Shown here: positions 150 to 16,826 of the stretch, piece by piece
Position numbering within the stretch: the stretch's first letter is position 1
Layout: the number at the start of each line of letters is the position of its first letter
NCBI RefSeq assembly: GCF_028369105.1
Contig: NZ_JAQNDO010000001.1
Coordinates: 8,216,501 to 8,280,500 of the forward strand
DNA length: 64,000 nt
Source of the DNA: Polyangium mundeleinium
Lineage (GTDB): Bacteria > Myxococcota_A > Polyangia > Polyangiales > Polyangiaceae
Direction: 5' to 3'
Program-made: the position numbers and the translations under genes
The notes under the pieces: model-generated
The model's input: the letters and a program-made list of their open reading frames with translations, nothing else
What the model was told of the DNA's origin: nothing
The model's database searches: none

Positions 150-1345
150 ACCCTCCTGCGCCGCTGCCTCCGGAGGTGCTCGGGTCCGCTTCCACGATTC
201 GGAACCCATACCCGGTTTATCGCGCCCTCCAGCATGCCTCGCCTGTGTGCTACACGCGGTTGCACGTTGCATCGCGCGAAGGCCGAAGCGAGCCGCCCTA
301 TGTCTGGATGCTGCTCCGCCACAGGGAGGTGCTCGCCGCCCTCCGCGACCCTACCGCGTTCTGCGCGGCCACGCCACAGCTTCGGGAAGGCATCCCCCGG
401 TTGATGCGTGTCCGGAGCACGCGGCCCCACCGCACGCATCTGTGGAGCCTGGTGAGCGAAGTATGCTCTCCGCAGCGGCTCAGCGCGCTCGCGGACCAGA
501 TCCAGCAGATCGCAGGCGCGCTACTGGACACGGTGGGGCGAGGACCCGTGGAGTTCATGACGGCTTATGCCGCCCCTCTGTCCACGCGCATGATGGTCGC
601 GGCGCTCGGCTTCCCGAGCGACGATGCGCCCCTGTTCAAGCCGTGGTGCGAAGCCGGCGTCGCCTACTCCAGCATGCCGTTGAAGGAGCGGCCTCAGGCA
701 CTCCAGCAATTCACGGCTTACCTCCGGCAGGCGATCGCCGCACGCCGGGCCGAGCCGGCCGATGACCTCCTCTCCGCGATGATCGCGGCCGACATCGAGG
801 GCGAGTCCCTCCCGGATGACGAGATCCGCGGCGCGATCGCGGGGGCGGTGATCTCCAGCAGCGAGGGTTCGGCCAACCTCCTCGGCAACATGATGGCCCT
901 GCTCGGGGATCGCCCGGAGCTTTGGCGGCGAGCGCGCGAGGACAGGTCGCTCGTCGAGCCCATCGTCGAGGAGGCATTGCGCTACGAAAGCCCAATGCAG
1001 AGCTTCAGCCGGGTGACGACACGAGCGATCGTGGTCAGCGGCATGGAAATCCCGGAAGGTGAGCTCGTCGATCTGTGCTGCGGTGCGGCGAACCGGGACC
1101 CGGAGGTGTTCGAAGCCCCGGACGATTTCCGGCCCGAGCGCCCGACGAACCGCGAGCACCTGAGCTTCGGCCGGGGATCACGCTATTGCGCGGGCGCGCC
1201 GCTGATTCGCCTCGTGGCACGCACCACGCTCCATGCATTCCTCGATCGCTTCCCCACGCTGGGCCGGGGAGCGGCGGCGCCGGTCCGCCAGCAAGTGGCT
1301 CGGGTGGCTCTGGGCTACACATCGCTGCCGCTGGTGCTGGGCTAA
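146..1345 (+). CDS. cytochrome P450
   Basis: A 399-residue soluble bacterial class-I type P450, a haem monooxygenase needing ferredoxin partners that are not encoded here. The haem-ligand loop FGRGSRYCAG places the axial Cys at residue 348, and the K-helix ExxR is E276-R279. The start ATG at 146 has AGGAGG at 135-140 and fits the family length better than the upstream in-frame codon at 98. The I-helix is odd: where families carry A/G-G-x-D/E-T, this protein reads SSSEGSAN (237-244), so the acid E240 is kept but the oxygen-activating Thr is Gly241, followed by Ser242. The gene converges on the aminopeptidase-like gene at 1468, with 122 bp between. Its neighbourhood of small paired peptides suggests a tailoring role on a peptide, which is inference. 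Confidence 0.93.
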   Translation: MNPPAPLPPEVLGSASTIRNPYPVYRALQHASPVCYTRLHVASREGRSEPPYVWMLLRHREVLAALRDPTAFCAATPQLREGIPRLMRVRSTRPHRTHLWSLVSEVCSPQRLSALADQIQQIAGALLDTVGRGPVEFMTAYAAPLSTRMMVAALGFPSDDAPLFKPWCEAGVAYSSMPLKERPQALQQFTAYLRQAIAARRAEPADDLLSAMIAADIEGESLPDDEIRGAIAGAVISSSEGSANLLGNMMALLGDRPELWRRAREDRSLVEPIVEEALRYESPMQSFSRVTTRAIVVSGMEIPEGELVDLCCGAANRDPEVFEAPDDFRPERPTNREHLSFGRGSRYCAGAPLIRLVARTTLHAFLDRFPTLGRGAAAPVRQQVARVALGYTSLPLVLG

Positions 1346-1467
1346 CGGGCAGCGTAGGCGCGCGGCAGCTTAGCAGGATCATCGCCCCCCGGCGAACGGG
1401 CGGCAGGCAAACGCGGCTGCATGCCGCACGGTCGCGACAGGCGCCGTCAAGGCCGGCGTGGGGGCGT

Positions 1468-2454
1468 TCAGGGGATGATTCTGGCGTCGGTCGCGATGAA
1501 GTCGATATGCGCCGCGCTGATTCCATCGCCGACGGCGACATGAACCCCCGCGCAGCCCTCGTTCATGACGGAGTTGATGCTCCAGTCGATGGTCTGGCTG
1601 GACGTGCTAGCGTTGCTGCTCATTGACAGTTCCAGGAGCACCATGTCCGTGTGCTCACCTGATAGCCGTCGCACCTCCTTGTAAATGTCCTTGCCGCCTT
1701 GCGTCCGGATCTCCTTGATGCGCGAGTCCTCCACGCTCAGCGTGAGGGGGAACTGACCATCCTCACGCAAGTCATGCGCGAGCTCGCGTGCCTCGCGGTG
1801 GAGATGGGCTCTGGCCTCCGGCATCGTCTGGTGGCGAGCGATGGACGTCCCCCGGGCAAGGAACTGCCCCTTCACGAGGTAGCCCGAGCGCTGGATGTTG
1901 CCTCCGTTCGGGATCAACCCCACCTCGAGCCACTGTCCTATAGCGCCCCATTCTCTTGGCTGGAGGAAGGGATCCTCGATGGGCTGCATCACGGTGATCT
2001 CGTCGGCCAACTGCACGAGAAGATCGCACCCATCGCCCTGGATACGAAATGAATCCTGGTGCGCTCCGATGAAATTTATCAATTGCCTGCTGTTCTCTGC
2101 CGCTCGCGCAAAGTCAGACTGGGCGATGCGCTCCAGCGCATACATGGCAGCCCGCAGGGAAGGCTCGAAAGGGCGCAGTGGGATCATCAGCACCCTGCTA
2201 TTGCCGAACGCGTCGTCGTAGAAACGCGGTGGATTATCGCGTTCCGTGAACAGAAGGACGGCGTTGGCCCGGAGCTCCTCCGGCAGGCTTGCCGGATCGT
2301 CTCCAGCCGCCAGGTAATGACAGCGGCACCCCGTGGATCGCAGAAAGTCGTAGACCTCCAGCGAGTCTGCAAAGTACGTGGGGCGTACACCGAAGACCGG
2401 GTGAAGGCTGCGATCCAGCTGCTCTCCCAGCGATACATGGTCCTTGGGCTTCAT
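1468..2454 (-). CDS. aminopeptidase T / M29-like protein, possible RiPP peptide-handling protein
   Basis: A 328-residue protein whose C-terminal half resembles M29 aminopeptidases (AmpS/AmpT fold): GDGCDLL (the GxDL strand), ELSMSSN, NEGCAGVHVAVGDG and the terminal AHIDFI. The HxD pair and the preceding GVHVAVG His are kept. The Glu normally found in the P-x-x-E loop appears as PNGGN, and the Tyr downstream of the first His is not evident, so the metal site looks incomplete and it may bind rather than hydrolyse peptides. ATG 2454 was chosen (protein start MKPKDHVSLG) because the N-terminal extension in the longer frame is Arg/Pro-rich and unlike the rest. It lies 68 bp downstream of the small peptide gene on the same strand and probably shares its transcript. 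The specific substrate is unknown. Confidence 0.7.
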   Translation of the reverse strand: MKPKDHVSLGEQLDRSLHPVFGVRPTYFADSLEVYDFLRSTGCRCHYLAAGDDPASLPEELRANAVLLFTERDNPPRFYDDAFGNSRVLMIPLRPFEPSLRAAMYALERIAQSDFARAAENSRQLINFIGAHQDSFRIQGDGCDLLVQLADEITVMQPIEDPFLQPREWGAIGQWLEVGLIPNGGNIQRSGYLVKGQFLARGTSIARHQTMPEARAHLHREARELAHDLREDGQFPLTLSVEDSRIKEIRTQGGKDIYKEVRRLSGEHTDMVLLELSMSSNASTSSQTIDWSINSVMNEGCAGVHVAVGDGISAAHIDFIATDARIIP

Positions 2455-2522
2455 GGGGGAACGAACTCCAATCGAAACCGGGAGCGCTTCCGGTACGGAA
2501 GGCTCCCGGGCTGGCTGCGCGT

Positions 2523-2714
2523 CTAGAACGTGTTGCAGGGGCAGGAGACGCCTACCTCCTCCGCATCCTTCGTCTGGATGTAGTTCTCGTACCAGAAGAG
2601 GTGATGCGGCTTCCTGTGGGTCAGGCGCGGCTCCTGCCGGTTGTGGCCACTTCCGCCGTCCTGGAACCAGATGGTGCGCACAGGGGCGCGGGCGAGTTGC
2701 TCGATTCGTTGCAT
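2523..2714 (-). CDS. small peptide A, putative RiPP precursor
   Basis: A 63-residue peptide starting MQRIEQLARAPVRTI and ending VGVSCPCNTF. ATG 2714 is preceded by GAGGAG at a 6-base spacing, which supports this start over the longer frame. Residues 24-43 contain HNRQEP, LTH, KPHH and FWYENY, and the same block recurs in peptide B (3684-3860) as HNRPEP, LTHEKPHH and VFNY. A conserved Pro/His-rich segment followed by a divergent tail, here with two Cys and an aromatic cluster, is the layout of a leader plus core. No hydrophobic signal is present. The next gene downstream on the strand is the M29-like protein. I do not recognise the family, and a precursor role is inferred from paralogy and context. 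Confidence 0.6.
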   Translation of the reverse strand: MQRIEQLARAPVRTIWFQDGGSGHNRQEPRLTHRKPHHLFWYENYIQTKDAEEVGVSCPCNTF

Positions 2715-2966
2715 GGAGTCTCCTCGATGCGGTTGATGGGCGTTCGATGGCGTAGCCGAATGCTGCGAATCCTCCGACCACCCGCTCGCCGAAGGTACAA
2801 TGAACGCGCCAAGCGCCGTGTCCGCCGTATGCTCGTCAGTGTTCAATAATGTAACGTCACATCGCTCCTTGACACGCTGACTCGACGGTTCACGTTCCCC
2901 TTGTCTCGTTTCAGGCGGCGCGCTGCGAAAACGAGGCCCGCCGCCTCGCCGTGAAGGAGGCACGCC
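2715..2966. promoter_or_regulatory. divergent promoter region of the two peptide units
   Basis: These 252 bases separate the minus-strand peptide A/M29-like unit from the plus-strand GNAT/peptide B unit. Bases 2838-2875 are clearly more AT-rich than their surroundings. They contain an imperfect palindrome at 2850-2861 (TGTAACGTCACA) and a TTGACA at 2869-2874. No matching -10 box is obvious at the usual spacing, so the palindrome is the better candidate for a shared operator. Calling it regulatory is inference. Confidence 0.4.
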
Positions 2967-3557
2967 ATGCGCAGGACTCTATTTCCGGACTATCCGTCCG
3001 TCATGCCGACGCTTCAATTCCGCGCCAATGCGCACTTGACGTCGCTTTGGACTGCCGCTCCAGGCGAAGTGCTCGATCTGTTCGATCGCGACCGTGAGCG
3101 TTTGCGTGCGTGGTGCCCGTGGGTGGACGGGTGTCGGAGCCTGGAATCCCTGCAGGAGGTGATGGCGGCGGCGCGGCGCGACTTCGATGAGCAGAAGGCG
3201 TTGTGGTTCGTGATCCGGCACCGCGACGCGGTGGTGGGTGTGATGGGTCTGTACGACTTACGCGCCTCCGATCGTCGCAGCTCAATCGCCTGCATGGTGG
3301 AAGAGGCGCACGAGGGGCTGGGGCTGGTGTACGACGCAGGCGCTGCGCTGACGTGCTATGGCATGGATGCACTCGGGCTCATCCGTATCGAGGCCCAGAC
3401 TGCCGCTGAAAATCGGCGCGGCATCAAGACGATGGAGCGCCTCGGCTTCCGGCGCGAGGGCGTGCTCCGGTGCGCTCAATGGTTGCACGACCGCCCGGTC
3501 GATAATGTGGTTTACTCGCTCACGGCGCAAGATCCACGACCGCGCCGGATCGGATAG
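2967..3557 (+). CDS. GNAT family N-acetyltransferase, RimJ/RimL type
   Basis: A 196-residue acetyltransferase, likely acetylating an N-terminus or amine with acetyl-CoA. The GNAT core is visible: FVIRHRDAVVGVMGLYDL (strands 2-4), GLGLVYDAG in place of the classical pyrophosphate loop Q/RxxGxG/A, and ENRRGIKTMERLGFRREGVLR, the typical RimJ/L C-terminal signature. The start is set by GAAGGAGG just upstream; a later ATG at 3003 is possible. It begins the plus-strand side of the divergent peptide locus and is followed after 126 bp by peptide B, so it may modify one of the peptides or give self-resistance. Neither role can be shown from sequence alone. Confidence 0.85.
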   Translation: MRRTLFPDYPSVMPTLQFRANAHLTSLWTAAPGEVLDLFDRDRERLRAWCPWVDGCRSLESLQEVMAAARRDFDEQKALWFVIRHRDAVVGVMGLYDLRASDRRSSIACMVEEAHEGLGLVYDAGAALTCYGMDALGLIRIEAQTAAENRRGIKTMERLGFRREGVLRCAQWLHDRPVDNVVYSLTAQDPRPRRIG

Positions 3558-3683
3558 AAAAGAATTTGCATGAGCAGCCTGAGCGCATCCTCCTGGCATG
3601 CTCCTTGTGTCTCCAAACGTGCGGGGGGTGAAAGGTCTTGCGGCATCCGGCGCCGCAACACCCCACCACGACACGGAGGCATC

Positions 3684-3860
3684 ATGGAACCGCGTGAACA
3701 ATCGAGCAGCAACCAGGTCCGTATCGTTCGGCTCCAGGGCAACGGCACCAGGCACAATCGTCCGGAGCCGCACCTGACCCACGAAAAGCCTCACCACGTC
3801 TTCAACTACGCCGAGGTCACCCACATGCCTGACGAGGAGGACACGCAGGAATCGGCATAG
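3684..3860 (+). CDS. small peptide B, paralogue of peptide A
   Basis: A 58-residue peptide with start ATG 3684 and GGAGG 5-6 bases upstream. Residues 22-42 (TRHNRPEPHLTH, then EKPHHVFNY) align with peptide A without gaps: HNR-x-EP-x-LTH-x-KPHH-x-F-x-Y. The N-terminal parts also share VR-x-x-x-x-Q. The tail (AEVTHMPDEEDTQESA) is acidic and lacks the Cys and Trp of peptide A. It follows the GNAT gene on the same strand with its own strong ribosome site. It could be a second precursor with another core, or a leader-like partner protein. I know of no named family that matches. Confidence 0.6.
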   Translation: MEPREQSSSNQVRIVRLQGNGTRHNRPEPHLTHEKPHHVFNYAEVTHMPDEEDTQESA

Positions 3861-4012
3861 GCGCCGCCTACTGCGCACTAGCACTCCTCTGCCACCACCA
3901 ACCACACCTTCATATCGGCACGAGCGCCCGCACCGTCGCTCCGCACCGCGCGCATCTCATGGGCGCAGCGAGCCTTTGAATCAGTCGCCGCCGGATCTCC
4001 GGTAGCGACGGT

Positions 4013-4779
4013 TCAGGCGGTGAGCCGCTGTGTCCAAGCGTTTTTTTCGGCGTTGCGTAGGTGCTGAAGGAAGGCGAAGGCCATCATCGTCAGGAGCGCG
4101 TGATGATGCAGCGCGTGCCAGGAGCGGCACTCGACATGGTCGAGCCCGAGCTCCTCTTTCATCTGCTGATGTGCTTGCTCGCAAGCCCAGCGCGCCTTGA
4201 TCACCGAGGCGAGCGTTCCGAGTTCGGTGTCGGGCGGGTAGTTCGAAAGGTAATACTTCCGCACGCCGTTCGCGCGCTTTTCGCAGACGAGCCAGGCTTC
4301 TTCGCCTGGCCCACGATTGTGTCCGATGACCTTCGGTCCGTCGGCCACGCGCACGCGGATGGCGGCGAACGACGCGGAGAGATGGCCTTTCGTCCCGTCC
4401 CGCCATTGCACTTCCTTGAAGCCGTTCTTTGCGCGCGTCGAAGAGAGCCTGGCAGTTGGCGTTCTTGCCGAGTTGCCCGCAGTACTGATGCGCGACGCCG
4501 ACCGAGTGCGTTCCCTTCTTTGGAATTGCGGTGTCGTCAATGATGAGGTGGGCGTTCTTGCCGCCGACGAGCGCTCCAGCCTTCTCGAGGAGCACGCGCT
4601 CGTGCCCGGCCGTGTCCCAGCGAGAGGTCGAGATGAAGTGGTGAAGCTGCTGCGTCTCACCTGGGCAAACTCGCGCGGCCATCGGCTCGATGCTCTTGCG
4701 GTCGCCTGGCCCGAGCAGCCCACGTAGGTAGACCGGCCCCCACTTCTGCTGGGACGGGTAGCCGAACTCGTGCAGGAAC
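4013..4779 (-). pseudogene. IS701-like DDE transposase remnant
   Basis: Read on the minus strand, the sequence starts [20 protein letters not shown] at 4779 with a stop just upstream and no start codon. It continues through [15 protein letters not shown], the first acidic motif [14 protein letters not shown], and [16 protein letters not shown] frameshift near 4410-4440 moves to the frame ending at 4013, which carries [20 protein letters not shown] (the C-terminal Glu region) and a typical tail. The middle of the enzyme, including the second Asp motif, is missing, so the element is internally deleted as well as frameshifted. IS701 transposases are usually about 400 residues or more, and only about 250 are recoverable here. 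I could not define terminal inverted repeats. Confidence 0.8.
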
Positions 4780-4947
4780 CGTGGCCGCCGCGATGAGCCC
4801 CCGCGTGAAACGTAATGTCATGGCCAGCTCTCCCTTTATTGCGCTCGAGGCGGTGCGGGCGGAGGTCCTGAACGCACCCGCGTGGGTGGTGAAACGATGC
4901 ACCACCCAACCACGGCCAGGTCGACCCCTCCCGCCCCCGCTCCTCAC

Positions 4948-5307
4948 CTATGAGCAGATGCTCCACCTGTGCGACGAGACGACGTCGTTCCAGCCTGGCA
5001 GCATGCGGGCCCACCTCTGGCCGTTCTTGAGGCACGTCCCACGCCCCCTGTAGTTGGGGTGCTCGTAAAAGATCACGTCGCGGTTGCCGCTATTGTACCC
5101 GTTGTTCCATGCGCTGGAAACCATGTCGTGTCCGCAGAACGACGCATAATCACTGACATTGCCCTCCGTGGAGCAAACTCGCCCCCCGTAGTTGATGTGC
5201 TCATAGACGTAGACCCTCCCGTCGGCAGCGCTGGCAGGCGCTGCGAGAGCGACCCCCATGAGACCGATTGCCGCGATGATTGCCCTTGCCGTTCCTGTTC
5301 TTCGCAT
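4948..5307 (-). CDS. secreted peptidase-inhibitor I36 / beta-gamma-crystallin-like protein
   Basis: A 119-residue secreted protein: an Arg-rich start, a hydrophobic stretch, then APASAA and a mature part beginning DGRVYVYEHINYGG. Two crystallin-like motifs, VYVYEHINYGGR and VIFYEHPNYRGRG, each lead into a Cys-containing strand and end in SSAWNNG or SSHRW. This is the pattern of the I36/crystallin-fold secreted proteins common in actinomycetes. Start 5307 is preferred over 5313 because GAGGAGGG then sits about 6 bases upstream. The gene lies directly beyond the transposase remnant and may have been acquired with it. Function (inhibition or calcium binding) is not testable from sequence alone. 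Confidence 0.8.
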   Translation of the reverse strand: MRRTGTARAIIAAIGLMGVALAAPASAADGRVYVYEHINYGGRVCSTEGNVSDYASFCGHDMVSSAWNNGYNSGNRDVIFYEHPNYRGRGTCLKNGQRWARMLPGWNDVVSSHRWSICS

Positions 5308-5395
5308 CTCCATCCCTCCTCGTTCCGCCCTCGATCGGACGATCTCTTGAAGCCCGGGCGCGATTGTCGGGGCACGTCTTCGGACCGCTGCGCCC

Positions 5396-6355
5396 CTAGG
5401 ATCCCCCGGCGGTGATCTCTCGGGCTCGCGGGAGCGCGGCGTGCTGCATGCGCCGCTCGGCTTCGATCTGAGACCGGTATTTCTCGCGGACGCGGTCCCC
5501 GTAAACCCGGTCGAGCTCCTCCACGGTCGCTGCAAGCGCGGTGTCGCGAGCACAGGTGGCTTCGGCGACCGCCAGGCGGACCTCGACGTCGTGTGCCTCG
5601 GCGGGGCCGAGGCCTTTGGTGAGATCATCGAGCGCGGAGCGGAGATCCCTGGGGCTCGGGTACGGATGCCCGGCCCCGCTCATGCACCGGGCCCAATCCT
5701 CCACCGCCTTCGTGAACCGCGCGTCCTGCTCGACCTCGGCGACATACAAGGGCGCGAGGTTTCCCACGATGGTGGTCGCCTGAAACCAGGCCTCGAGATC
5801 ACCATAGAGGCGACGTTGCGCGTCCGCGCGGCAGCTCCGGTCGCTGGCCGTGATGACCCCGCCCATCGGCATCGCCACGGACAGTCCGTCCGGCCGCTCC
5901 CCGTTCAGGGCCGCCAGGGCGGCGAGTTGCTCGCCCGGGGCCAGCGCATCAAAATACTGCTGGTTGGGGTTCGGCCGCATGGCCTGCGCCCTTCCTCGCG
6001 TGCCTCCGTCACCGAAGCCGTGCTCTCGGGCCCACACCACATCATCGATGACGTAACGAAAGGACGGGCGCTCGCTCGGCGGCGTGCAGACAGGAACGAA
6101 GGTGAAGCCGTGCGCCTTCATGCACCGGCTGATCAAGATCTGTTCGGCCAGATCGAGCATTGCGATCTCTACCGCAGAGACCTGCCGAGGGGGTGTTGGG
6201 CTGTCCCCGTCCGGTGTCGCCGATCCACAGCCTCCACAGCCGGTGAGGAGGGCGGGCAGGCAGGCAACCATCGCCTGGATGGCCCTGCCAAACAACGAAC
6301 CGCCCCGATATGGCGTTCCACCTCCCCGGGCCCGCGAAAACTGCTCGCTGGCCAT
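5396..6355 (-). CDS. hypothetical lipoprotein
   Basis: A 319-residue predicted lipoprotein with hydrophobic segment VACLPALLTGC (lipobox LLTGC) after an unusually long 28-residue N-region. The start ATG at 6355 has GGAGGGG at a 5-base spacing. The mature part is mostly helical, with ISRCMKAHGF near the start and DWARCMSGAGHPYPSPRDL in the second half. This pair of RCM-type segments, with a Cys-containing linker (SCRADAQRRLYG) between them, is familiar from uncharacterised actinomycete lipoproteins. No enzyme motif is visible. It stands alone on the minus strand, 88 bp from the crystallin-like gene, and a co-transcript with that gene is possible. Confidence 0.75.
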   Translation of the reverse strand: MASEQFSRARGGGTPYRGGSLFGRAIQAMVACLPALLTGCGGCGSATPDGDSPTPPRQVSAVEIAMLDLAEQILISRCMKAHGFTFVPVCTPPSERPSFRYVIDDVVWAREHGFGDGGTRGRAQAMRPNPNQQYFDALAPGEQLAALAALNGERPDGLSVAMPMGGVITASDRSCRADAQRRLYGDLEAWFQATTIVGNLAPLYVAEVEQDARFTKAVEDWARCMSGAGHPYPSPRDLRSALDDLTKGLGPAEAHDVEVRLAVAEATCARDTALAATVEELDRVYGDRVREKYRSQIEAERRMQHAALPRAREITAGGS

Positions 6356-7195
6356 GAACCCCTCCGTGACGGCTCGACCGACCAGTTGCAGGATGAAAAC
6401 TTGCCGATAGAATCCCGTCGCATTGAATGTCGACGACCGCTCTCGTCAGAACGTAAGGCGACGGCCGGTCGCGTCGAGGGGGCTGGACGCGCGTGCCATG
6501 GCAGCGTCACCGGAAAAATCTCGCAGCCGACTCCCTGCCATATCCCCGGCCGGCCCGAGCCCCCTCCGCTGAGGCCGGCCACCGGACGGCGTTCGACGTC
6601 ACCATGGCGGCGCGAGCTTCAGCAGCCGGGCATGAGGAGCGGCCGGGTTAGGGTGTCTCCGCCGCAGATACGACGGCTTTCCCTATTCCACTCACTATCG
6701 CGGCCGCGCATGAGCAGCCCCCCTGACGGAGGCAGGTGGTGGTGGCCGGCCTGATCTGGCATGAATCAATTGCCGGATGCGGAAATCGGGAGCGGAAACG
6801 GAAGCGGCAGCGGCATCAGGCGCCTGCCCCGACTTGCCCTCTCACCCGGTCTCATCCTCCACACCACCCACCCGGCCCGCGCGCGGCACTGTGCTCATGG
6901 TGCCCCTGGAGGTACTGCGGGATCCCGATCGCCCTGTCAGGGCCCGAACCCTCGCGTGCAGAGCGCGGCGCGCTCCTCGAGATCGAGGCCCGGCGCGCAG
7001 CGAGGCTGTTTGCCAGCGCGGCCCCTCCCGGCTCTGCAGAATTCGACAGATCGCGTCAGGATGCGCTCACATCACGGCCCATCTCGCCGGACGTGTTTTG
7101 ACGATGCCGTCGTTGGCCTCGGTCTCGACCGTCGCGTAGAGCCAAGGCTCCCGGCCCGTCTGAAAGCGCTTTATGCTTGAGCTAGGAGGGACGCC
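6356..7195. other. 840-bp stretch without a convincing gene
   Basis: No frame here has both a ribosome site and protein-like composition; the open frames are short and Arg/Pro-rich. The only protein-like stretch is on the minus strand at about 7067-7165 (FQTGREPWLYATVETEANDG, then IVKTRPARWAVM), which could be the tail of a lost gene. Bases around 6780-6820 hold a short GGAAGC/GGCAGC-type repeat. The last 30 bases contain the ribosome site of the chitosanase gene. Confidence 0.5.
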
Positions 7196-7918
7196 ATGCC
7201 AGGAACTCGTATTCCTTCCGCGGGCGGCATCGTGGCCATTGCTGCGATCTTGCTGGCGAGCGCGCTGCGGAGCGCGATGGTGGCGAGCTCCGGCGAATAC
7301 GACGACGCCGCCCCAGCTCCAGCGCCGGGCCCTGAGCCCGTGCCTGCCGATCTCGTCGCGAAACTGACGAATTGCCATCAGCTCGCGGGGACGACGAAAT
7401 TCGCACATGACGCAGGTGGCGCAAAGACCGTACCCCTGTGCGCGCTCAATGGCGCGATCTGGTGGACCTCGGACCTCGACATCGACTGCGACGGCGGCCG
7501 AGGCGCGGAATGCAAGGCCGACCCGTATTATCAGGCAGAGACGTCCGCCGTGGACTCGGCGGGCAACCCGCTGGACGCGTCTACGCTCCCTTTCGTCGTC
7601 TTGCCCCTGCCGAGCAACGGCTTCGATTACAAGGCCCACGGCCTGGAGCTCGGGAGCGTGGTCGGCGTCATCCACCAAGGGAAGATACTCTACGGCATCC
7701 TCGGCGATCTCGGCCCGAAGGGCGTGATCGGCGAGGCCTCGTACGCCATGGCCCAGATGCTCGGCATCGACCCGAGCCCGACCTTTGGCGGCGTCGACGG
7801 CGGCGTCACGTACGTGGCATTCACCGGGACGAGCGCGGTGGTGACGAGGAACGAAGATACGGCGCAGGCGGCGCAAATCGGGAAGGCGCGAACGGCGGCG
7901 GTGATCGGCGCGAATTGA
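7196..7918 (+). CDS. glycoside hydrolase family 75 chitosanase-like protein
   Basis: A 240-residue secreted enzyme expected to cut chitosan. After a short basic start and hydrophobic helix (GIVAIAAILLASAL) and a Pro/Ala linker, the GH75 fold begins at about residue 60. The motifs visible are SDLDIDCDGG (92-101, the acidic motif of the family), VLPLPSNGF, GILGDLGPKGVIGEAS (167-182, the GD-x-GP-x-x-x-IGE signature with the second acidic residue) and FTGTSAVV near the end. The start is supported by AGGAGGG upstream. The next plus-strand gene, 169 bp on, encodes a NodB-type deacetylase, so the pair could convert chitin to chitosan and then cleave it. That pathway is inference. Confidence 0.87.
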   Translation: MPGTRIPSAGGIVAIAAILLASALRSAMVASSGEYDDAAPAPAPGPEPVPADLVAKLTNCHQLAGTTKFAHDAGGAKTVPLCALNGAIWWTSDLDIDCDGGRGAECKADPYYQAETSAVDSAGNPLDASTLPFVVLPLPSNGFDYKAHGLELGSVVGVIHQGKILYGILGDLGPKGVIGEASYAMAQMLGIDPSPTFGGVDGGVTYVAFTGTSAVVTRNEDTAQAAQIGKARTAAVIGAN

Positions 7919-8087
7919 GCGCTGCATCCTGTCGGAGAAGCCCCGCGATCTTGCCGTGCGCTGAAGCTTCTCCCCCTCACCATCATCATCGCAGCCATTG
8001 ACGGTTGGGTCTGGCCGTCTGATGACTTGCGAGGAATGGCGCTGATCGCCTCGGAATGGCGGGCCGCGTCGATGGGGAGGTGGCATC

Positions 8088-8963
8088 ATGCGCAGCGAAG
8101 GTGCAACGGATACCATTCGGGCCCTCCTCCTGGGGGCCTTCGCAGTATCCGCGGGGCTCTCCGCGCATGCGACTCACGTCACGCCCGAGCGTCACACGCC
8201 CGCGGGCCCGGCGGCGTCTCGCACGCTCGAGGCGTGCGAGGAGGCCCCAGAAATTCCCTTCGATCTGCGGCCGGCGTATCTCACGCCCGATACCATCGGG
8301 CTCACCTTCGACGACGGCCCGGATCTGGTCAATACCCCCAAGGTGCTCGACGTGCTGGCGCGTGAGGGGGTCCACGCGACATTCTTCATCAATACGGAAA
8401 ACTGGTCATCCCTGAGCACGAACGAGAACGCCCGCGCCATCGTGCGTCGAATCGTGGAGGAAGGGCACGCGCTCGGCAACCACACGGTGCACCACTGGCG
8501 CCTTTCCTCGCTGTCACCCGAACGAATCGAGCATGAAATCGCGAGCGTCGAGCAGACCGTACGGGAGATCCTGGGCGACGAGGCGCCGCGCCTCACGCTC
8601 TTCCGGGCGCCTTACGGCGATCCTTACGTGGGGGGCCGGCGCGGCCGGGGCTATCAGAAGGTGGCCCCCATCGTCGCGCGGCACGCAGTCCACATCGGAT
8701 GGAATATCGCCATCGCCGACGGCCGGTGCCCCCGGGGCGACGCGGAATGCGTGCTCTCCGCGGTGAAGCGGAACCTCGATCGAGGCTTTTACGGCATCAT
8801 CCTGCTCCATAGCACCCACGCGCAGACCGCCAGGGCGCTGCCAGCGATCATCGAAGAGATCCGGCGACGGGGGATGCATTTCGTGTCGGTCGAGGACGTC
8901 GTCCGGGCGCGCTTCGGGCGATCGTCGGCGGAATTGGTGGACGATCCGTGCAAGGAAGGCTAG
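8088..8963 (+). CDS. secreted polysaccharide deacetylase (NodB domain)
   Basis: A 291-residue CE4-type deacetylase acting on chitin, peptidoglycan or a related N-acetyl glycan outside the cytoplasm. A signal-like segment (LLLGAFAVSAGLSAHA) is followed by the NodB motifs: TFDDGPD at 73-79 with the metal Asp and catalytic base, the H132-x-x-x-H136 pair in NHTVHHW, RAPYG at 173-177, and the C-terminal ILLHSTH. All catalytic positions are present, so it should be active. GGGAGGT lies upstream of ATG 8088. It follows the GH75 gene in the same direction but with a 169-bp gap, so it may have its own promoter. Confidence 0.92.
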   Translation: MRSEGATDTIRALLLGAFAVSAGLSAHATHVTPERHTPAGPAASRTLEACEEAPEIPFDLRPAYLTPDTIGLTFDDGPDLVNTPKVLDVLAREGVHATFFINTENWSSLSTNENARAIVRRIVEEGHALGNHTVHHWRLSSLSPERIEHEIASVEQTVREILGDEAPRLTLFRAPYGDPYVGGRRGRGYQKVAPIVARHAVHIGWNIAIADGRCPRGDAECVLSAVKRNLDRGFYGIILLHSTHAQTARALPAIIEEIRRRGMHFVSVEDVVRARFGRSSAELVDDPCKEG

Positions 8964-9053
8964 CTCGACGCATGAGGGCGCCTACGGTGGCAACCCGTTC
9001 GCTTCCACTCGATCCGTAGCTTCCCGAGCCGCGTCACGGGCAGCGGAAACGCA

Positions 9054-9074
9054 GGCGCGCCCCTGCGGCGCGCC
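9054..9074. terminator. GC hairpin after the deacetylase gene
   Basis: GGCGCGCC at 9054-9061 and again at 9067-9074 are self-complementary 8-mers separated by 5 bases, able to form a strong stem. No T-run follows. It lies 90 bp after the deacetylase stop and may end that transcript, but this is weak. Confidence 0.3.
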
Positions 9075-9177
9075 ACCCCGCGGCCCACGGAGCGCCTAGC
9101 TCCGCTGCCGATGCGGTTGACGACGTGCCGGTCAGCGACGATGTTTACCGCCGGTCACGCCCCAGGAAGAAGCACGG

Positions 9178-9471
9178 TCAGGAGTTCCTTCCTTTTGGCA
9201 TCCTTCCCGAAGAGGTCCGCATACAAGAGCGCGACCCGGCCCTCCTCGCGGCATATGCCTCTGACGCCTTCGCCTGCACCGCGGCGATGTACGCCGCCCG
9301 CAGGTCCCTCGGCATCGCGGCGCTCGACGGCTGCGGCGAAGCTTGCGTCGGGGAAGGCTCGACCGGCGCCGGCTGGCCATCGGGGAGGGCGTCGCGGCCG
9401 CAAGACGCGGCAAGCAGGATCAACACGGCGGCGGTGGAGGCGCGGCGATGGAGCAGTTGCCTCTGAGTCGC
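9178..9471 (-). pseudogene. possible remnant of a small lipoprotein gene
   Basis: On the minus strand one frame reads RRASTAAVLILLAASCGRD (a lipoprotein signal with lipobox), a Pro/Ser-rich linker, then MPRDLRAAYIAAVQAKASEA. Just after YAARR the protein-like character moves to another frame (EEGRVALLYADLFGKDAKRK, ELLTVLLPGA, ending at 9155). No good start codon or ribosome site precedes the signal. This looks like a frameshifted or truncated gene. It may equally be a chance high-GC frame. The bases from here to 9729 hold nothing else recognisable. Confidence 0.3.
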
Positions 9472-9729
9472 CGAAGGCCGGGGCGACCGCTTTCCCGCAG
9501 CACAGGAAGCCGCCCACGACGCCCGCCCTGGAGCCGGCCTTCGACTGCTAGGCGAGCCTCCCACGCCTAGCCCGGACGCGCCCGCGTCCGGGGTCAAAAG
9601 CGCCCGCAAACGCTGATCATAGGCGCGCTCCACACCCCGGGACGAGCGGCGCCGCCGCCTCTGAGCTTCACGAGATTCGGCGGCGAGCGTGGGGAGCTTG
9701 AACAAACCCGAGCAGCTCGGTGATACCGC

Positions 9730-9837
9730 GTGCTGAGGCTGTACCGCGCCGCGGGCTACCGCGAGGTCGAGCCGTTCAACGGGGAGCCGTACGCGCACCA
9801 CTGGTTCGAGAAGGAGCTGGCCACTCCGCGCACGTAA
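9730..9837 (+). pseudogene. GNAT acetyltransferase C-terminal fragment
   Basis: Thirty-five codons read VLRLYRAAGYREVEPFNGEP, YAHHWFEKELATPRT and a stop. YRxAGYxEVxPFNGEPYAHHWFEK is the well-known C-terminal end of one GNAT acetyltransferase group. A TGA sits immediately upstream in frame (9721-9723), and no other GNAT motif precedes it, so only the tail survives. It overlaps the 3' end of the isochorismatase-family gene on the other strand, marking a rearrangement junction. Confidence 0.7.
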
Positions 9838-10351
9838 GGATTTCCGCTCCCCTGCTGGGAAAGACAGTGTTGACGAGGAGCTCGTGCACCGCCGGATCCT
9901 GGTCAGCGCACCCGTCGCGGAGCACGGTCAGCCTGTAGCCCCGGTCCGACGCGTCGTATAGCGTGGCCGCGACCATGGCGCTCGTCGCGACTCCGGTGAG
10001 CGCGAGCGAGTCCACGCCGCGGGCGCGGAGCACCAGATCGAGATCCGTTCCCGCGAACGCGCTCGTGCGCCGCTTGAGCACGACGACGTCGTCCGCGGTG
10101 ACCTCCAGCGCGACCTCCGTACCCGGCGAACCCTCGTGGAACAGGTCACCGGCTCGGTAGAAGGCCGCGAAGACCTCACCCGCCAGGTCCGCCCCGTTGG
10201 CCCGAAACGCGGTACGCACGAACACGACCAGCGCCCCGGCCGCGCGCGCACGCGGCAGCAGTTCAGTCACCGGTGGCACCACGGCCTTCGTGAATGGGTA
10301 GTTGTCGAGAATCCCGGCCTGGAGGTCACCGACGATCAGCGCGCTTCTCAT
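9776..10351 (-). CDS. isochorismatase-family (cysteine hydrolase fold) protein, catalytic Cys absent
   Basis: A 191-residue protein of the isochorismatase/nicotinamidase fold. The first catalytic Asp (D9 in IVGDLQAG) and the Lys (K93 in VVVLKRRTSAF) are in place. The nucleophile segment reads GVATSAMVAATLYDA, putting Met126 where hydrolases have Cys. Members with this substitution are known and are thought not to use the Cys mechanism. The last 20 or so residues (after CAEWPA) are the antisense of a GNAT fragment, so the natural end was probably replaced. Its ATG overlaps the stop of the 94-residue upstream gene (ATGA), implying coupling. Substrate is unknown. Confidence 0.8.
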   Translation of the reverse strand: MRSALIVGDLQAGILDNYPFTKAVVPPVTELLPRARAAGALVVFVRTAFRANGADLAGEVFAAFYRAGDLFHEGSPGTEVALEVTADDVVVLKRRTSAFAGTDLDLVLRARGVDSLALTGVATSAMVAATLYDASDRGYRLTVLRDGCADQDPAVHELLVNTVFPSRGAEILTCAEWPAPSRTSGARTAPR

Positions 10352-10632
10352 GGCGCGAGCTTCTCCATCCGGCGGCCCACCGTCAACAGCACACCGAGGC
10401 CGCCACGATCGAGCGCTCCCTCCTTTGTCTTCCAGACAGCACGAGCGGCGATGCGTAGCGCCTCGACGGCGGGTGGCAGGACGCCCGTCGCCTGCGCCCT
10501 GACGGCGAGCTCGCGCGGCGGACGCTCGCGCAGGCGGATCTGTCGGAGTTCCCGGCGGAACCTGGCCAGGTGTTCGTCATTGCTCGACCCGCAGGGCACT
10601 CGCGCCTCCGCTTCCGCTACGGGTTCCGGCAC
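10348..10632 (-). CDS. hypothetical protein upstream of the isochorismatase gene
   Basis: A 94-residue frame with GTG start at 10632 and a weak ribosome site. The sequence is helix-prone and basic (LARFRRELRQIRLRERPPRE, then ALRIAARAVWKTKEG). The stop overlaps the next gene by 4 bases, which argues that it is, or was, translated. It may be the C-terminal part of a larger regulator or binding protein, but I recognise no family. The N-terminus is uncertain. Confidence 0.45.
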   Translation of the reverse strand: MPEPVAEAEARVPCGSSNDEHLARFRRELRQIRLRERPPRELAVRAQATGVLPPAVEALRIAARAVWKTKEGALDRGGLGVLLTVGRRMEKLAP

Positions 10633-10674
10633 CCCTGCAGGCGCGCAGCAGCTTGTCAGACCGAGCTGCGGCCC

Positions 10675-11013
10675 TTACCCAGCGGCCTTCACGTCCAGCC
10701 AATAGTTCTGGCCGTAGCGGCTATCCCAGGTCGAGCAGCCCGTGTGATCCGTATTGTTGAACCATAGCTCGATCCGGCTGGTGTTCGCGGGCACGTTCAC
10801 CTGGCAGGCTCCTGAGGAGACATCGCCGGCTTGCTCCTGTCCGCTCGGGTGAAATCGGAGGTTGACGCGGATACTCCACGCCTTCTGCCCATAACGCTCC
10901 GCCCGGCACTGACACAACCTGTCCGTGGCGTATTCGATCTGCAAGGGCTCCCCGGCTCGAATGTCGCCGCTCTGCTTATGAGACCAGTCTGACGAAAAGC
11001 TCACTGTAGCCAT
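10675..11013 (-). CDS. small beta-rich protein (DUF6209-like)
   Basis: A 112-residue protein without signal peptide or membrane segment. Short beta-prone stretches alternate: VSFSSDWSHKQSGDI, LQIEYATDRLCQCRAERYG, WSIRVNLRFHPSGQEQAG, RIELWFNNTDHTGC and WDSRYGQNYWLDV. This order (a W-x-x-SG start, an RL-x-x-CR strand, then ELWF-x-NTD-x-x-GC-x-x-WDSRYGQNY) matches my memory of DUF6209, a small family of unknown function. The start has AAAGGA upstream. It is 41 bp upstream of the 94-residue gene on the same strand, so the three may form one transcript. Confidence 0.65.
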   Translation of the reverse strand: MATVSFSSDWSHKQSGDIRAGEPLQIEYATDRLCQCRAERYGQKAWSIRVNLRFHPSGQEQAGDVSSGACQVNVPANTSRIELWFNNTDHTGCSTWDSRYGQNYWLDVKAAG

Positions 11014-11110
11014 TGCTTTTTCCTTTCAGGGACACTTGCGGGCCCGCTCAGGGCTTCGCCTCGGGCTGCTCCACATACAAGAGCCGCGACGTTCCGTGTC
11101 GCCCCAGATA

Positions 11111-11149
11111 AGCTCCATCGGGCCACGTGCGCCATGGGACCAAAGTCCT
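11111..11149 (+). repeat. dispersed intergenic repeat, copy 1
   Basis: Bases 11129-11149 match the reverse complement of 20024-20044 perfectly over 21 bases, with further similarity back to 11111. The core contains CCATGGGACCAAAGTCC. It lies about 145 bp before the propeller kinase start, in the same orientation relative to its gene as copy 2. Confidence 0.75.
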
Positions 11150-11292
11150 ACTCCGGCAGCTCCCGGCGGGGGCGCCCCGGGGCGCCGGCGAACAACCCCC
11201 GCGCCTCTTCCCTTATGTCTGGCGCTTCCTGTGCGCCGGCCAGGTCGAACAAGACTGCGACCGGGAGCGAGCGCGCGTAAGATGCGCGGCGC

Positions 11293-14200
11293 ATGACCAT
11301 CCGGTCTTCCTTTCGCCCTCGACATGCGCTCTCCTGCCTCGCCTTGGGGCTCCTCCTTTCTCTTGCGGGTCCCGCCTCCGCCGCCGACATCGCGGATCTC
11401 GGCGTGCCCATGATCCGCTCCTTCGGCGCGGACGACGGGCTCCCCCAGAACAGCGTCAATGCCATCGCCTTCGAGCCGGGCGGGCGAATGTGGATCGGCA
11501 CCCAGGCCGGCACCGCCTCCTACGACGGACAGCGGTTCACGCCGCTCGAGCTGCCGCGCGGCGTAACCTCGTCGAGCTGGGTGACGGCCCTTGCGGTGAC
11601 GCATGACGGCGCCGTCTGGTTCGGGCTGGAGACGGGCGAAATCTTTCGTTATGCGAGCGAGCGGTTCACGCGCATCGAGGCGGTCGAGGGCCCCACGAAG
11701 CTCGTGCGCACCATCGTCGAGACGCGCGAGGGGGAAGGCCACGCGCTCTGGGTGGGCACCGTGGGCGGCCTCCACCGCCTCGACGCGGGCGAGCGCTTGC
11801 GTCGGATCGAGCTCGGGCCCGGTTTCGAGCGCGCAGGCGTCGATGCCGTGCGCGAAGGCCATGGGCCGAACGGTGAGAGGACGCTCTGGGTGGGCACGAC
11901 CGCCGGGCTCTTGCATTGCGAGGCCGAGCGCTGCGCCCCGTTCGCCACCAAGGCGAACGGATTGCCTCATGATATCGTCACCGCTCTGCTCACCACCGTC
12001 GGCGAGGGGGGCCGGCCGGAGCTCTGGGTCGGCACGATGGGCGGCCTCGCCCATCACGCGGACGGGCGCTGGGAGCCGTTCACGAAAGCGAACTCGCCTC
12101 TGCCCGCGGAGTTCGTACGGACGCTCGGCGAGACGGTGAGCGGCGCGGGAAAACGTGCGCTCTGGATCGGCACCATGGGCGGGGGCCTGGTGCGCTTGCA
12201 GGACGGCGTGTGGACGGTGCTGGCCAAGGCGCGCTCGACCCTCCCGGACGATTACGTCATCGCCCTCGCGCCGACCAGCCGCGCACACGGCGCGCAGGTG
12301 CTGTGGATTGGCACCACCAACGGCGGCCTCTCACGCTTGCGGCACGACGGGTGGACGGCGTTCACGCCGCGCAACTCGCCCCTCTCGGGCGCCGTGTACG
12401 CCATCACGGAGGTGCGCCCCGAGGGCGGCGCGCCCGAGCTTTGGTTCGGCATGGATGGCAACGTGATCCGGCGGTCCGCGGGAGGCTTCTCGCCGCTCAC
12501 TTCGCCCGATACGCCGGGGGGGCTCGGCAATAGCATCACCACGCTCCTCGCCTCCCGGCGCGAGCCCGGCGTGGTCTGGATCGGCAGCGCCAGCGGCGAG
12601 CTCCATCGCTGGCAGGACGGGCGCTTCACCACGTACACCCCGCGCAACTCCCCGATGCCGCGCGGCAATGTCACCGACCTGCGCGAGTCGCTGGACGGGC
12701 ACGGGTTATGGGTCACCACGCTGGGCAGCGGCGCCGCGCGCCTCGACGACCAGGGCGCCTGGCAGGTCGTCAAGCAGGAGAACACGCAGCTCCTCGACAA
12801 CGGGGTGACGTCCGTCCTCGAGAGCACGCGCCCGGGCGACAAGGTGGCCACGTGGTTCGGCACGCGCCGAGGGTTGTCCCGGCTCGAGGACGGTCGATGG
12901 ACGAACTACACGTCGGCGAACGCGCCGCTCGGTGGGGACTTCGTCGCCACGCTGACCGAGCTGCGCGATATGCGCGGCGCGCGTGTGCTCTGGATCGGCA
13001 CCCTGGGCGGCGGCGTCGCGCGGTATGACCTCGACGCCAACGTGTGGCGTTCGCCTCTCGGCACGAAGAGCCGCCCGTCGCTGCCGGACGACACCATCTA
13101 TCAGGTGCGCGCGGACGCGCGGGGCCGCATCCATCTCTTCACCAACCGCGGCGTCGCGCGCCTCTCACCCCGCGCGCCCACGCCGGACGACCCCGCCGAG
13201 TTTTCTCTCTACACCTTCACCACCGAGGATGGGCTGCCGAGCAACGAATGCAACATGAACGGCTCGTTCGTCGACAGCCGCGGCCGCATCTGGGCGGGCA
13301 CCGCCGGCGGCGCCGCCGTCTTCGATCCGGCAGACGAGGTCGAAGCGACGACGCCCAAGCCGCTCGTCCTCTCCGCGGCGCGCGCGGCGGGCGGGGCGCT
13401 GCTGCCCGGGATGGGCATCGCGTGGGACGAGAACACCGTCGCCTTCGATTACGCGCTCCTCTCCTTCTTCCGGGACCGCGACACGCGTTATCGCACGCAG
13501 ATGGCCGGCTTCGACCCTTCGCCGAGCGACTGGAGCACGGACGCCAAGGCGAGGTACACGAACCTCTCCGCGGGCGCGTACACCTTCCAGGTCTGGGGGC
13601 GCGACCATGCCGGCAACGTGGCGGGGCCCGTCTCGATTGCATTCCAGGTAAAGCCCGCGCCGTGGCGGACGTGGTGGGCCTACCTCGGCTATACGCTCGC
13701 GCTCTTCGGGCTCGTCTGGAGCGGGGTGCGCGTGCGGCTGCGCGCGCTGCGGCGGCGGACCCTCGAGCTCGAGCAGCAGGTCGAGTCGCGCACCGCCGAG
13801 CTCAAGGCGGCCAAGGAGGCAGCCGACCAGGCGAACCGCGCCAAATCGGCCTTCCTCGCCAGCATGAGCCACGAGCTGCGCACGCCGCTCAATGGGATTC
13901 TCGGCTACACGCAGCTCGTCGCCCGCATGCCGGGGCTCCCCCGGGAGGGCAAGGACGGGCTCGGCGTCGTGCAAAGGTCGGGCGAGCACCTGCTTTCGCT
14001 CATCGACGACGTCCTCGACCTCGCCCGCATCGAGGCGGGCAAGCTGGAGATTGTTCCGAGCGATGTCCATCTGCCCCTGCTCGTGCAAAGCGTGGTGGAC
14101 CTCTGCCGGGTGCGGGCGGAGGGCAAGGGGCTCGCATTTCATTACGTGCCCGCGAAGGATGCGCCTTCCTGGGTGCGCGCGGACGAAAAGCGGCTCACGC

Positions 14201-16824: not shown

Positions 16825-16826
16825 GT

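Follow-up and report, generated by a model that had tools for sequence, protein, structure and literature searches.

A probable CgnB-family RiPP-type locus in Polyangium mundeleinium with a Cys-Pro-Cys-tailed candidate precursor peptide

Introduction

What is made by a bacterial locus in which two short paralogous peptides are encoded on opposite strands among a metallopeptidase-like protein, an acetyltransferase and a cytochrome P450? We examined this question for a locus of Polyangium mundeleinium within a window of 64,000 nucleotides, the whole stretch of DNA that was analysed, and positions below are those of the window. The original prediction had read the locus as a RiPP-type system with an M29/aminopeptidase-T-like partner outside any known RiPP. 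We concluded that a RiPP-type locus is supported, but the M29-like partner belongs to a described family, that of CgnB and CgnE, which bind peptides in the biosynthesis of the RiPP crocagin.

Gene Organization of the Locus

Table 1. Features of the locus, with window coordinates and the evidence for each assignment.
Feature	Position	Strand	Evidence or sequence features
Cytochrome P450, 399 aa	146..1345	+	Pfam p450 E 1.6e-22; haem Cys in FGRGSRYCAGAP; I-helix SSSEGS
CgnB/CgnE-family protein, 328 aa	1468..2454	-	phmmer 6zsv CgnB E 7.3e-11, 6zsu CgnE E 7e-4
Peptide A, candidate precursor, 63 aa	2523..2714	-	HNR..KPHH block, FWYENY, C-terminal SCPCNTF
RimJ/RimL-type GNAT acetyltransferase, 196 aa	2967..3557	+	Pfam Acetyltransf_3 E 1.2e-16
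Peptide B, paralogue of A, 58 aa	3684..3860	+	FNYAE, acidic tail, no CPC

The P450 gene converges with the CgnB-like gene, and the peptide A gene lies 68 bp upstream of the latter on the same strand. The GNAT gene is divergent from peptide A and precedes peptide B, with which it shares its strand; a transposase remnant, split between frames, is found 3' of peptide B. The RimJ/L-type acetyltransferase named in the original prediction was confirmed by Pfam, and a RimJ/RimL-family enzyme is among its three closest relatives of solved structure. The usual P450 I-helix motif is AGxET/S. The second enzyme, described earlier as a P450 with an unusual I-helix, is indeed a P450 that keeps the haem Cys and, as read from the sequence, has SSSEGS in place of AGxET/S; it is a possible tailoring enzyme of the locus. 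Among the neighbours scanned with Pfam (five plus six proteins, selected ORFs of a region that starts ~2.4 kb ahead of the window and covers its first 9 kb) there was no CgnC-type dioxygenase or N-methyltransferase. Promoter- or terminator-like sites were not found in 1300-4000, and 0/5 proteins matched defence-system models.

The CgnB-Like Protein and Its Metal Site

The protein formerly described as M29-like was identified by phmmer as a relative of CgnB and CgnE. The match to CgnB (PDB 6zsv) covers residues 80-324, CgnE (PDB 6zsu) was matched as well (Table 1), and the similarity to CgnB/CgnE is full-length without extra domains. No Pfam or NCBIfam family, Pfam M29 included, scored above cut-off. 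In a fold search with a low-confidence predicted model (mean pLDDT 58.7, built on a three-row alignment) the best four matches were CgnB/CgnE, followed by M29 peptidases, with ~320 columns aligned; these matches are consistent with the sequence result but strengthen it little.

The Zn ligands of CgnB given in the available text of PMC10070186 are E161, E252, E274, H280, H291 and D293. When aligned with CgnB, the window protein has E176, E274, E298, H304, H315 and D317 at the six positions, which are invariant in a three-sequence alignment. Judged from these alignments, all six zinc-ligand positions are kept and the metal site does not look incomplete, contrary to the first description. The same text reports an intact metal site in all single-copy genomes. 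In P. mundeleinium, three own-genome searches (7, 15, and 7 first-look candidates scored) gave one match, the CgnB-like protein of the window.

The CgnB-like family is rare in the genome samples searched, which overlap. A single-sequence query detected it in 2/282 Myxococcota; it was found in 5/144 relatives (two full-length, those of P. mundeleinium and G1100, and three partial) and in 5/317 class genomes, including one partial match (G1334). Further counts were 3/396 genomes in the phylum of G282 (G282 counted), 1/398 in the phylum of G283 (G283 itself), and 1/39 in both the order and the class of the actinobacterium G336 (each time G336 itself). Of two genome-contig scans the first was empty and the second returned two distant relatives. 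Viral contigs contained no relative of the CgnB-like proteins (62 candidate stretches), and phages gave no match to the CgnB-like protein of Deinococcus.

Candidate Precursors Beside Related Proteins

The three closest relatives found are encoded on a Deinococcus plasmid, on a Thermus plasmid and in G336. Together with the window protein, which is 34-39% identical to them, they form one clade (support 89/89; present in 90% of 200 bootstrap trees), a moderate support outside the starred class in a tree with long branches. The tree sets the window protein apart from the CgnB/CgnE clade.

In all three relatives the ORF directly upstream of the CgnB-like gene encodes a candidate precursor that contains F-x-Y and whose C-terminal Cys-Pro-Cys (CPC) tail resembles the SCPCNTF of peptide A. 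The Deinococcus peptide has three EVKFxYAPE repeats and ends in VGCPCGTF; the Thermus peptide reads ...FSYSYS...LTCPCGVGI; that of G336 has three FSYxNW motifs, an internal duplication and the end APCPCASSVLS. The G336 locus was a forward test in that the CPC pattern had been noted before this locus was found. CPC within the last 12 residues occurred in 5/1058 ORFs of 40-160 aa from nine stretches and in 5/1300 from 13 stretches. Because peptide A lies in two overlapping stretches, the five rows represent four distinct ORFs in both counts, and all four are directly upstream of a CgnB-like gene. After addition of ORFs of 20-39 aa, seven rows (five distinct) were counted among 2112; the extra one, presumably a chance ending, is a 31-aa frame antisense inside the CgnB-like gene of the window (1623-1718, + strand). 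Six loci outside the clade (L009, L010, L020, L021, L029, and L036) had no CPC-ending ORF of 40-160 aa.

As far as sequence comparison goes, the similarity between precursors of different loci is weak. In a search of 1362 ORFs with a profile of A plus B, the best match was the G336 precursor (E 0.038), and the same profile without tails did not have it among the 13 matches listed. When the other precursors were used as queries against 466 window ORFs, A and B ranked 7 and 54 with Deinococcus, 3 and 2 with G336, and 33 and 23 with Thermus, none of them significant; a leader-plus-core profile of these three precursors did not have A or B among the 11 matches listed. Leader conservation by profile search across the precursors was not significant. 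A pattern R-x-hydrophobic...G..H.R, written after the peptides had been viewed, is found in all five peptides and in 1/464 other window ORFs.

The surrounding genes differ from locus to locus. In Thermus and in a gammaproteobacterium an ABC ATPase and permease follow directly downstream, the Deinococcus locus has a methyltransferase, and the G336 locus has an AMP-ligase, an aldehyde dehydrogenase and a TPP enzyme. No P450 or GNAT was annotated near either plasmid relative (from an incomplete gene table) or found among six genes scanned beside the G336 CgnB-like gene, and no enzyme common to all four loci was seen beyond the peptide and CgnB-like gene. The proposed co-occurrence was borne out for the peptide and the CgnB-like gene, which recur together in three other organisms and so at four loci in all, but not for the P450 and GNAT. 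Likewise, the proposed leader-plus-core precursors have counterparts upstream of the relatives, but the recurring features are F-x-Y and CPC rather than HNR..KPHH.

Peptides A and B

As originally described, the window encodes two peptides on opposite strands that share HNR-x-EP-x-LTH-x-KPHH-x-F-x-Y; their overall identity is 41%, and in A the block stands together with G..H.R. The tails differ as claimed (...EVGVSCPCNTF in A and the acidic ...MPDEEDTQESA in B), and each gene has a good ribosome site, GAGGAG 5 nt ahead of the start for A and GGAGG 4 nt ahead for B. Peptide A has a GC3 of 0.86 and peptide B one of 0.78. An own-genome search with peptide B (15/15 first-look candidates scored) recovered only B and A, the latter at E 9.9e-9. 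A and B are genuine paralogous peptides. Constraint is suggested for the shared block but not for the tails, since dN/dS between A and B was 0.29/0.85 for residues 12-42 and 1.03/1.07 for residues 43-58.

The expectation that the HNR..KPHH leader recurs elsewhere did not hold: the block was not found as a leader outside its own genome among 317 class genomes. At E <= 0.01 four of the 317 gave matches, P. mundeleinium itself (A and B) and G1122, G1126, and G1193 (up to 19 first-look candidates scored per listed genome). The last three were rejected as spurious because the matched stretches read as frames that are not those of a peptide gene; by eye, two of these frames overlap genes for TetR-like regulators. 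We rejected HNR..KPHH as a widespread leader. In plasmid searches peptide B gave chance matches only (best E 0.4), peptide A and the G336 precursor gave no match, and the Deinococcus precursor found only itself.

Discussion

We consider it likely that this is a small CgnB-family RiPP-type biosynthetic locus of a sub-type distinct from crocagin, in which peptide A is the precursor bound by the CgnB-like protein; the gene set probably makes a modified peptide using this CgnB relative. Peptide A, and probably also B, would serve as a precursor, with its N-terminal part bound by the CgnB-like protein, which is present as a single copy. This protein would have a shortened M29-aminopeptidase fold, probably retaining two zinc ions, and may bring the F-x-Y segment, the Cys-Pro-Cys tail or both to its metals. 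The metals would serve as a Lewis acid in the formation or cleavage of a bond, a role other than that of an aminopeptidase. In this genome, oxidation of the aromatic segment FWYENY by the P450 is possible, and the GNAT may either cap the peptide or shield the host; leader removal and export may belong to the pathway as well. Several observations count against the proposal: there are four loci only, they show no common enzyme beyond the peptide and CgnB-like gene, the precursors resemble each other weakly, the clade support is moderate with long branches, the predicted model is poor, one further CPC ending appears among very short frames, no promoter- or terminator-like site was found in 1300-4000, and peptide B has no CPC.

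The role of peptide B is less certain than that of A. It is quite possible, if not the expected outcome, that only A belongs with the CgnB-like gene and that B is a decoy, a regulator or an immunity peptide, or else a degenerating copy that accompanies the GNAT gene next to the broken transposase. Its acidic tail without CPC, the unconstrained tails and the transposase remnant 3' of the gene point in this direction; however, the block of residues 12-42 looks constrained between A and B, and multiple units recur elsewhere, as three repeats in Deinococcus, as an internal duplication in G336, as two tandem paralogous peptides in G433 and as two units in G216. Such a role for B is compatible with the precursor role proposed for peptide A.

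Alternatively, the CgnB-like protein could be a true metallopeptidase that trims or matures the peptide, with A and its relatives as substrates, the CPC tail being a cysteine ligand that keeps the zinc site inactive until cleavage. A cysteine switch of this kind is known from matrix metalloproteases. The six intact ligand positions, the M29 peptidases as next matches of the predicted fold, and a CPC that is single and C-terminal, whereas F-x-Y is repeated in Deinococcus and G336, would fit such an enzyme. However, CPC is missing from peptide B, with a maturation protease alone no modifying enzyme would remain among the annotated neighbours in Thermus, and the available text of PMC10070186 reports no observed aminopeptidase activity of CgnB/CgnE, so we regard this alternative as unlikely. 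The same text regards CgnB as a probable repurposed aminopeptidase and leaves open by exactly which mechanism crocagin assembly begins. The M29 aminopeptidases (AmpT, PepS, and AmpS) have a probable ancestral fold and dinuclear metal-site layout in common with the window protein (fold search and, in the part available, PMC10070186), but they are ~400 aa long versus ~328 aa and the window protein has no Pfam M29 match.

A chance neighbourhood of ordinary small proteins and an unrelated metallo-protein would account for the small number of loci, for peptides A and B having no family in Pfam or NCBIfam, and for the one chance CPC ending among very short frames. It is quite improbable when the CPC tail is present in 4/4 clade members, is absent from all the remaining ORFs of 40-160 aa in the set of 1300, and occurs in none of the six loci outside the clade.

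Crocagin biosynthesis (PMC10070186; PDB 6zsv and 6zsu) resembles the window locus in protein family and fold, in the intact Zn-ligand positions of CgnB and in the short precursor gene upstream. The crocagin-like clusters of Myxococcota (G216, G1273, and G1100) likewise have CgnB-family proteins with a nearby short precursor, doubled in G216, but their CgnB/CgnE proteins come in two copies and their cores end in YW; the window shows neither feature. In the positive control G1100, a 21-residue peptide ending ...GNIYW lies with CgnB and CgnE homologues and fits every CgnA residue number given in the available text of PMC10070186. Despite the common protein family, a crocagin locus proper, forming a pyrroloindoline from a C-terminal Tyr-Trp, was rejected as extremely improbable: A ends SCPCNTF with F-x-Y and B ends DTQESA, the genome has one CgnB-like match instead of two near each other, the protein is in its own clade, and the neighbours are a P450 and a GNAT, the scanned genes encoding neither a CgnC-type dioxygenase nor a methyltransferase. 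The best reading of the single copy, the missing YW core and the lack of a dioxygenase among those genes is a new sub-type within CgnB-family RiPPs. The biarylitides and myxarylin, P450-modified RiPPs, also have a short precursor close to a P450, and FWYENY is aromatic-rich; here, in contrast, the recurring partner is the CgnB-like protein, and no P450 was observed at the other three loci.

In our literature search no description of CPC-tailed RiPP precursors was found, although the RiPPER-predicted precursors in the supplement of PMC10070186 may include some of these peptides. Judged by titles, PMC10070186 was the only paper that concerns CgnB, and there was no report linking M29 with a RiPP precursor peptide, or Thermus thermophilus or Deinococcus with a CgnB-type RiPP. 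We tentatively suggest, as a possibility short of our main proposal, a new RiPP class across Myxococcota, Deinococcota and Actinomycetota in which a lone CgnB-type dizinc protein works with no need for a dioxygenase. Its precursors would consist of one to three F-x-Y(-x-N-W/Y) cores followed by one Cys-Pro-Cys tail, which would either dock on the metal site or feed it. If so, the simplest form of this class would be that of Thermus, with three parts: peptide, CgnB-like protein and ABC exporter. In this clade a single intact CgnB-like protein goes together with a readily recognisable candidate precursor, and the activity of the family may therefore be tested without a dioxygenase or an inactive twin. 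In Thermus only an ABC transporter is annotated beside this pair, and the Thermus homologue, expected to be heat-stable and provided with a defined candidate substrate, would be a practical entry point.

CgnB-like protein and its metal site

The window protein P0001, called "M29-like" in the original prediction, matched no family in Pfam or NCBIfam (one Pfam entry fell below threshold, E 0.07). Against solved structures its top match was CgnB (6zsv, E 7.3e-11), a protein from the crocagin pathway, followed by CgnE (6zsu); a fold search with a low-confidence P0001 model (mean pLDDT 58.7) also placed CgnB and CgnE first (E 1e-10 to 1e-11), ahead of the M29 peptidases AmpT, AmpS, and PepS. We concluded that P0001 is, as judged from its sequence, a CgnB/CgnE-family protein. 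PMC10070186 reports homologues in about 100 genomes and an intact metal site in every genome with a single copy. Since the six CgnB metal ligands given there align with P0001 E176, E274, E298, H304, H315, and D317, positions invariant across three aligned sequences, the proposal of an incomplete-looking metal site finds no support. P0001 belongs to the same protein family as crocagin CgnB and CgnE, whereas the window locus differs from the crocagin class in precursor core, CgnB/CgnE copy number, and the neighbor genes scanned, and on these points falls outside it. A separate Pfam M29 match, barely above cut-off in a ~520-residue frame, lies elsewhere in the same genome, distant from the window.

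Coordinates of features in the window and in fetched stretches (L numbers; G numbers are compared genomes). Candidate precursors outside the CPC-associated clade were picked by position and are unproven.
Stretch	Feature	Position	Strand	Remark
Window	P450 gene	146-1345	+	at window start
Window	CgnB-like protein, 328 residues	2454-1468	-	after peptide A
Window	Peptide A	2714-2523	-	68 bp ahead of CgnB-like gene
Window	GNAT	2967-3557	+	precedes peptide B
Window	Peptide B	3684-3860	+	after GNAT
Window	Transposase remnant	4013-5035	-	adjoins peptide B
Window	Small protein	4957-5307	-	apparently secreted
L022 (own genome)	M29 match	G000:C1:9549894-9550343	-	
L019 (G336)	Flavoprotein-family gene	4601-5161	+	~1.7 kb upstream of precursor
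L008 (Thermus)	ABC ATPase + permease	8970-10672	+	after CgnB-like gene
L009 (gammaproteobacterium)	ABC ATPase + permease	3903-5526	+	after CgnB-like gene
Gammaproteobacterium	Candidate precursor			ends ISRYLTY
Streptomyces apricus	Candidate precursor			ends VKAYVY
L020 (G433)	Two tandem paralogous short peptides	8377-8460, 8613-8804	-	ahead of CgnB-like gene; end EGVWPERY and AVWMEWR
L021 (G216)	Crocagin-like cluster	7979-8179, 8281-9210, 10677-11573		candidate precursor with two NRYW units
L036 (G1273)	Crocagin-like cluster	2925-2990 (-), about 3295-4182 (+), 13997-14908 (+), 16275-17129 (+)		single candidate precursor, ends NRYW
G1100	Candidate precursor			single, ends NIYW
L041 (G1076)	Peptide, M29-like, radical SAM	7786-7974, 6591-7691, 5267-6403	-	
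L042 (G1079)	Same gene order as L041	5526-5714, 5819-6919, 7359-8243	+	

Peptides A and B

The small paralogous peptides A and B are 41% identical and have in common the block HNR-x-EP-x-LTH-x-KPHH-x-F-x-Y, and a search of the whole genome (13.25 Mb) with B returned only B and A, the latter at E 9.9e-9. The block appears constrained over residues 12-42 (dN 0.29, dS 0.85); constraint is not apparent over residues 43-58 (dN 1.03, dS 1.07). Paralogy, genome search, and this dN/dS contrast together show that the predicted pair, with a common block and differing tails, is real and beyond chance. Recurrence of the common block elsewhere was not found: only four of 317 class genomes matched HNR..KPHH, namely the own genome and three spurious cases. 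Precursor copies or units are multiple beside the CgnB-like gene in the window, G433, G336, Deinococcus, and G216, a recurrence that makes a stray peptide the less likely reading of B and a second precursor the more likely one. The P450 or the GNAT had been expected to co-occur with the peptides; the identified neighbor enzymes differ in all four loci, so these two look like local additions or mere neighbors. The transposase remnant is a weak DDE_Tnp_1 match below cut-off, broken over two frames, and the small protein at 4957-5307 matches peptidase inhibitor I36 and, weakly, beta-gamma crystallin.

CPC-tailed peptides upstream of related genes

A plasmid tblastn search gave two P0001 relatives, one in Deinococcus sp. 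QL22 (39% identity) and the other in Thermus thermophilus AA2-2 (34%). Directly upstream of the CgnB-like gene, Deinococcus carries a 98-residue peptide annotated as hypothetical protein (three EVKFxYAPE, end VGCPCGTF), and Thermus an 85-residue ORF (FSYSYSVSYSW, end LTCPCGVGI) absent from the annotated gene table, itself incomplete. Both resemble peptide A (FWYENY ... VSCPCNTF). A third close relative (34% to P0001), from the actinobacterium G336, came from a search of 396 genomes of the phylum of Streptomyces apricus (G282), made once the FxY/CPC pattern was already on record; its 148-residue upstream ORF contains FSYSNW, FSYGNW, and FSYSNW, holds two copies of a 45-residue unit, and ends APCPCASSVLS. 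The Flavoprotein-family gene upstream of it (Pfam Flavoprotein, E 1.1e-21) is possibly a decarboxylase.

A CPC in the last 12 residues was present in 5/1058 ORFs of 40-160 residues from nine stretches and in 5/1300 from 13 stretches; the five rows are four distinct ORFs, because A falls in both the window and L002. Inclusion of ORFs down to 20 residues (7/2112 rows) added one 31-residue frame, antisense within the window's CgnB-like gene and presumably due to chance. F-x-Y alone occurred in eight window ORFs, A and B among them, out of 262 with 50-160 residues. No description of CPC-tailed CgnB-associated precursors was found in the literature searched, which excluded the supplementary precursor list of PMC10070186.

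Similarity among the precursors is limited. Used as queries against 466 window ORFs, the others did not single out A/B (ranks 7/54 with Deinococcus, 3/2 with G336, 33/23 with Thermus). An A+B profile placed the G336 precursor at the top of 1362 ORFs (E 0.038; it appears twice because L030 overlaps L019), and the Deinococcus and Thermus precursors were absent among the 13 matches listed; with A alone they scored E 1.3 and E 12, respectively. R-x-hydrophobic ... G..H.R near the N-terminus was seen by eye in all five peptides, as a pattern written post hoc.

Loci outside the CPC-associated clade

In a 12-protein tree the four CPC-associated proteins form one clade with moderate support (89/89; 90% of 200 bootstrap trees), separate from the clade (100/100) that holds the CgnB/CgnE proteins encoded in crocagin-like clusters. 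No CPC-ending ORF of 20-160 residues was found in the six loci outside the clade. As a positive control, the G1100 locus has CgnB and CgnE homologues and a 21-residue peptide agreeing with all CgnA residue numbers taken from PMC10070186. The tandem G433 peptides share EFVD[IV][NT]VSxTSDxSAExVW and differ in their ends. The G216 cluster encodes two CgnB/CgnE homologues and a precursor whose two N[GA]NRYW units could give two cores from a single precursor. In G1273, a 21-residue peptide (MKKTIKTITVADRKLNTNRYW) accompanies two CgnB/CgnE homologues ~10 kb apart, farther than the 2.1 kb that PMC10070186 gives, and a 284-residue ORF follows the second copy. G1076 and G1079, two species of one genus, carry another M29-like RiPP-type set: a 62-residue peptide (...VETPEWSINFGCSVKEA) immediately ahead of a diverged M29-like protein, then a radical SAM protein.

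Proposed working and export

We infer a working scheme by analogy with CgnA-CgnB-CgnE, in which the N-terminal part of the precursor would serve as recognition sequence and its core would lie in the aromatic F-x-Y segment(s). The CPC tail occurs once per precursor, at the C-terminus, regardless of F-x-Y unit count; a repeated core is less likely for it than a docking/follower element or a thiol-bearing end meeting the zinc site. The Thermus locus groups the peptide, CgnB-like gene, ABC ATPase, and permease (the permease from annotation, with no Pfam match), and in the gammaproteobacterium an ABC ATPase gene comes after the CgnB-like gene, together with a permease scoring slightly below the Pfam ABC-2 cut-off. 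This pair is a likely export module for single-copy CgnB loci. The two groupings suggest that the first step may need no protein beyond the CgnB-like one, and they point to export of the product.
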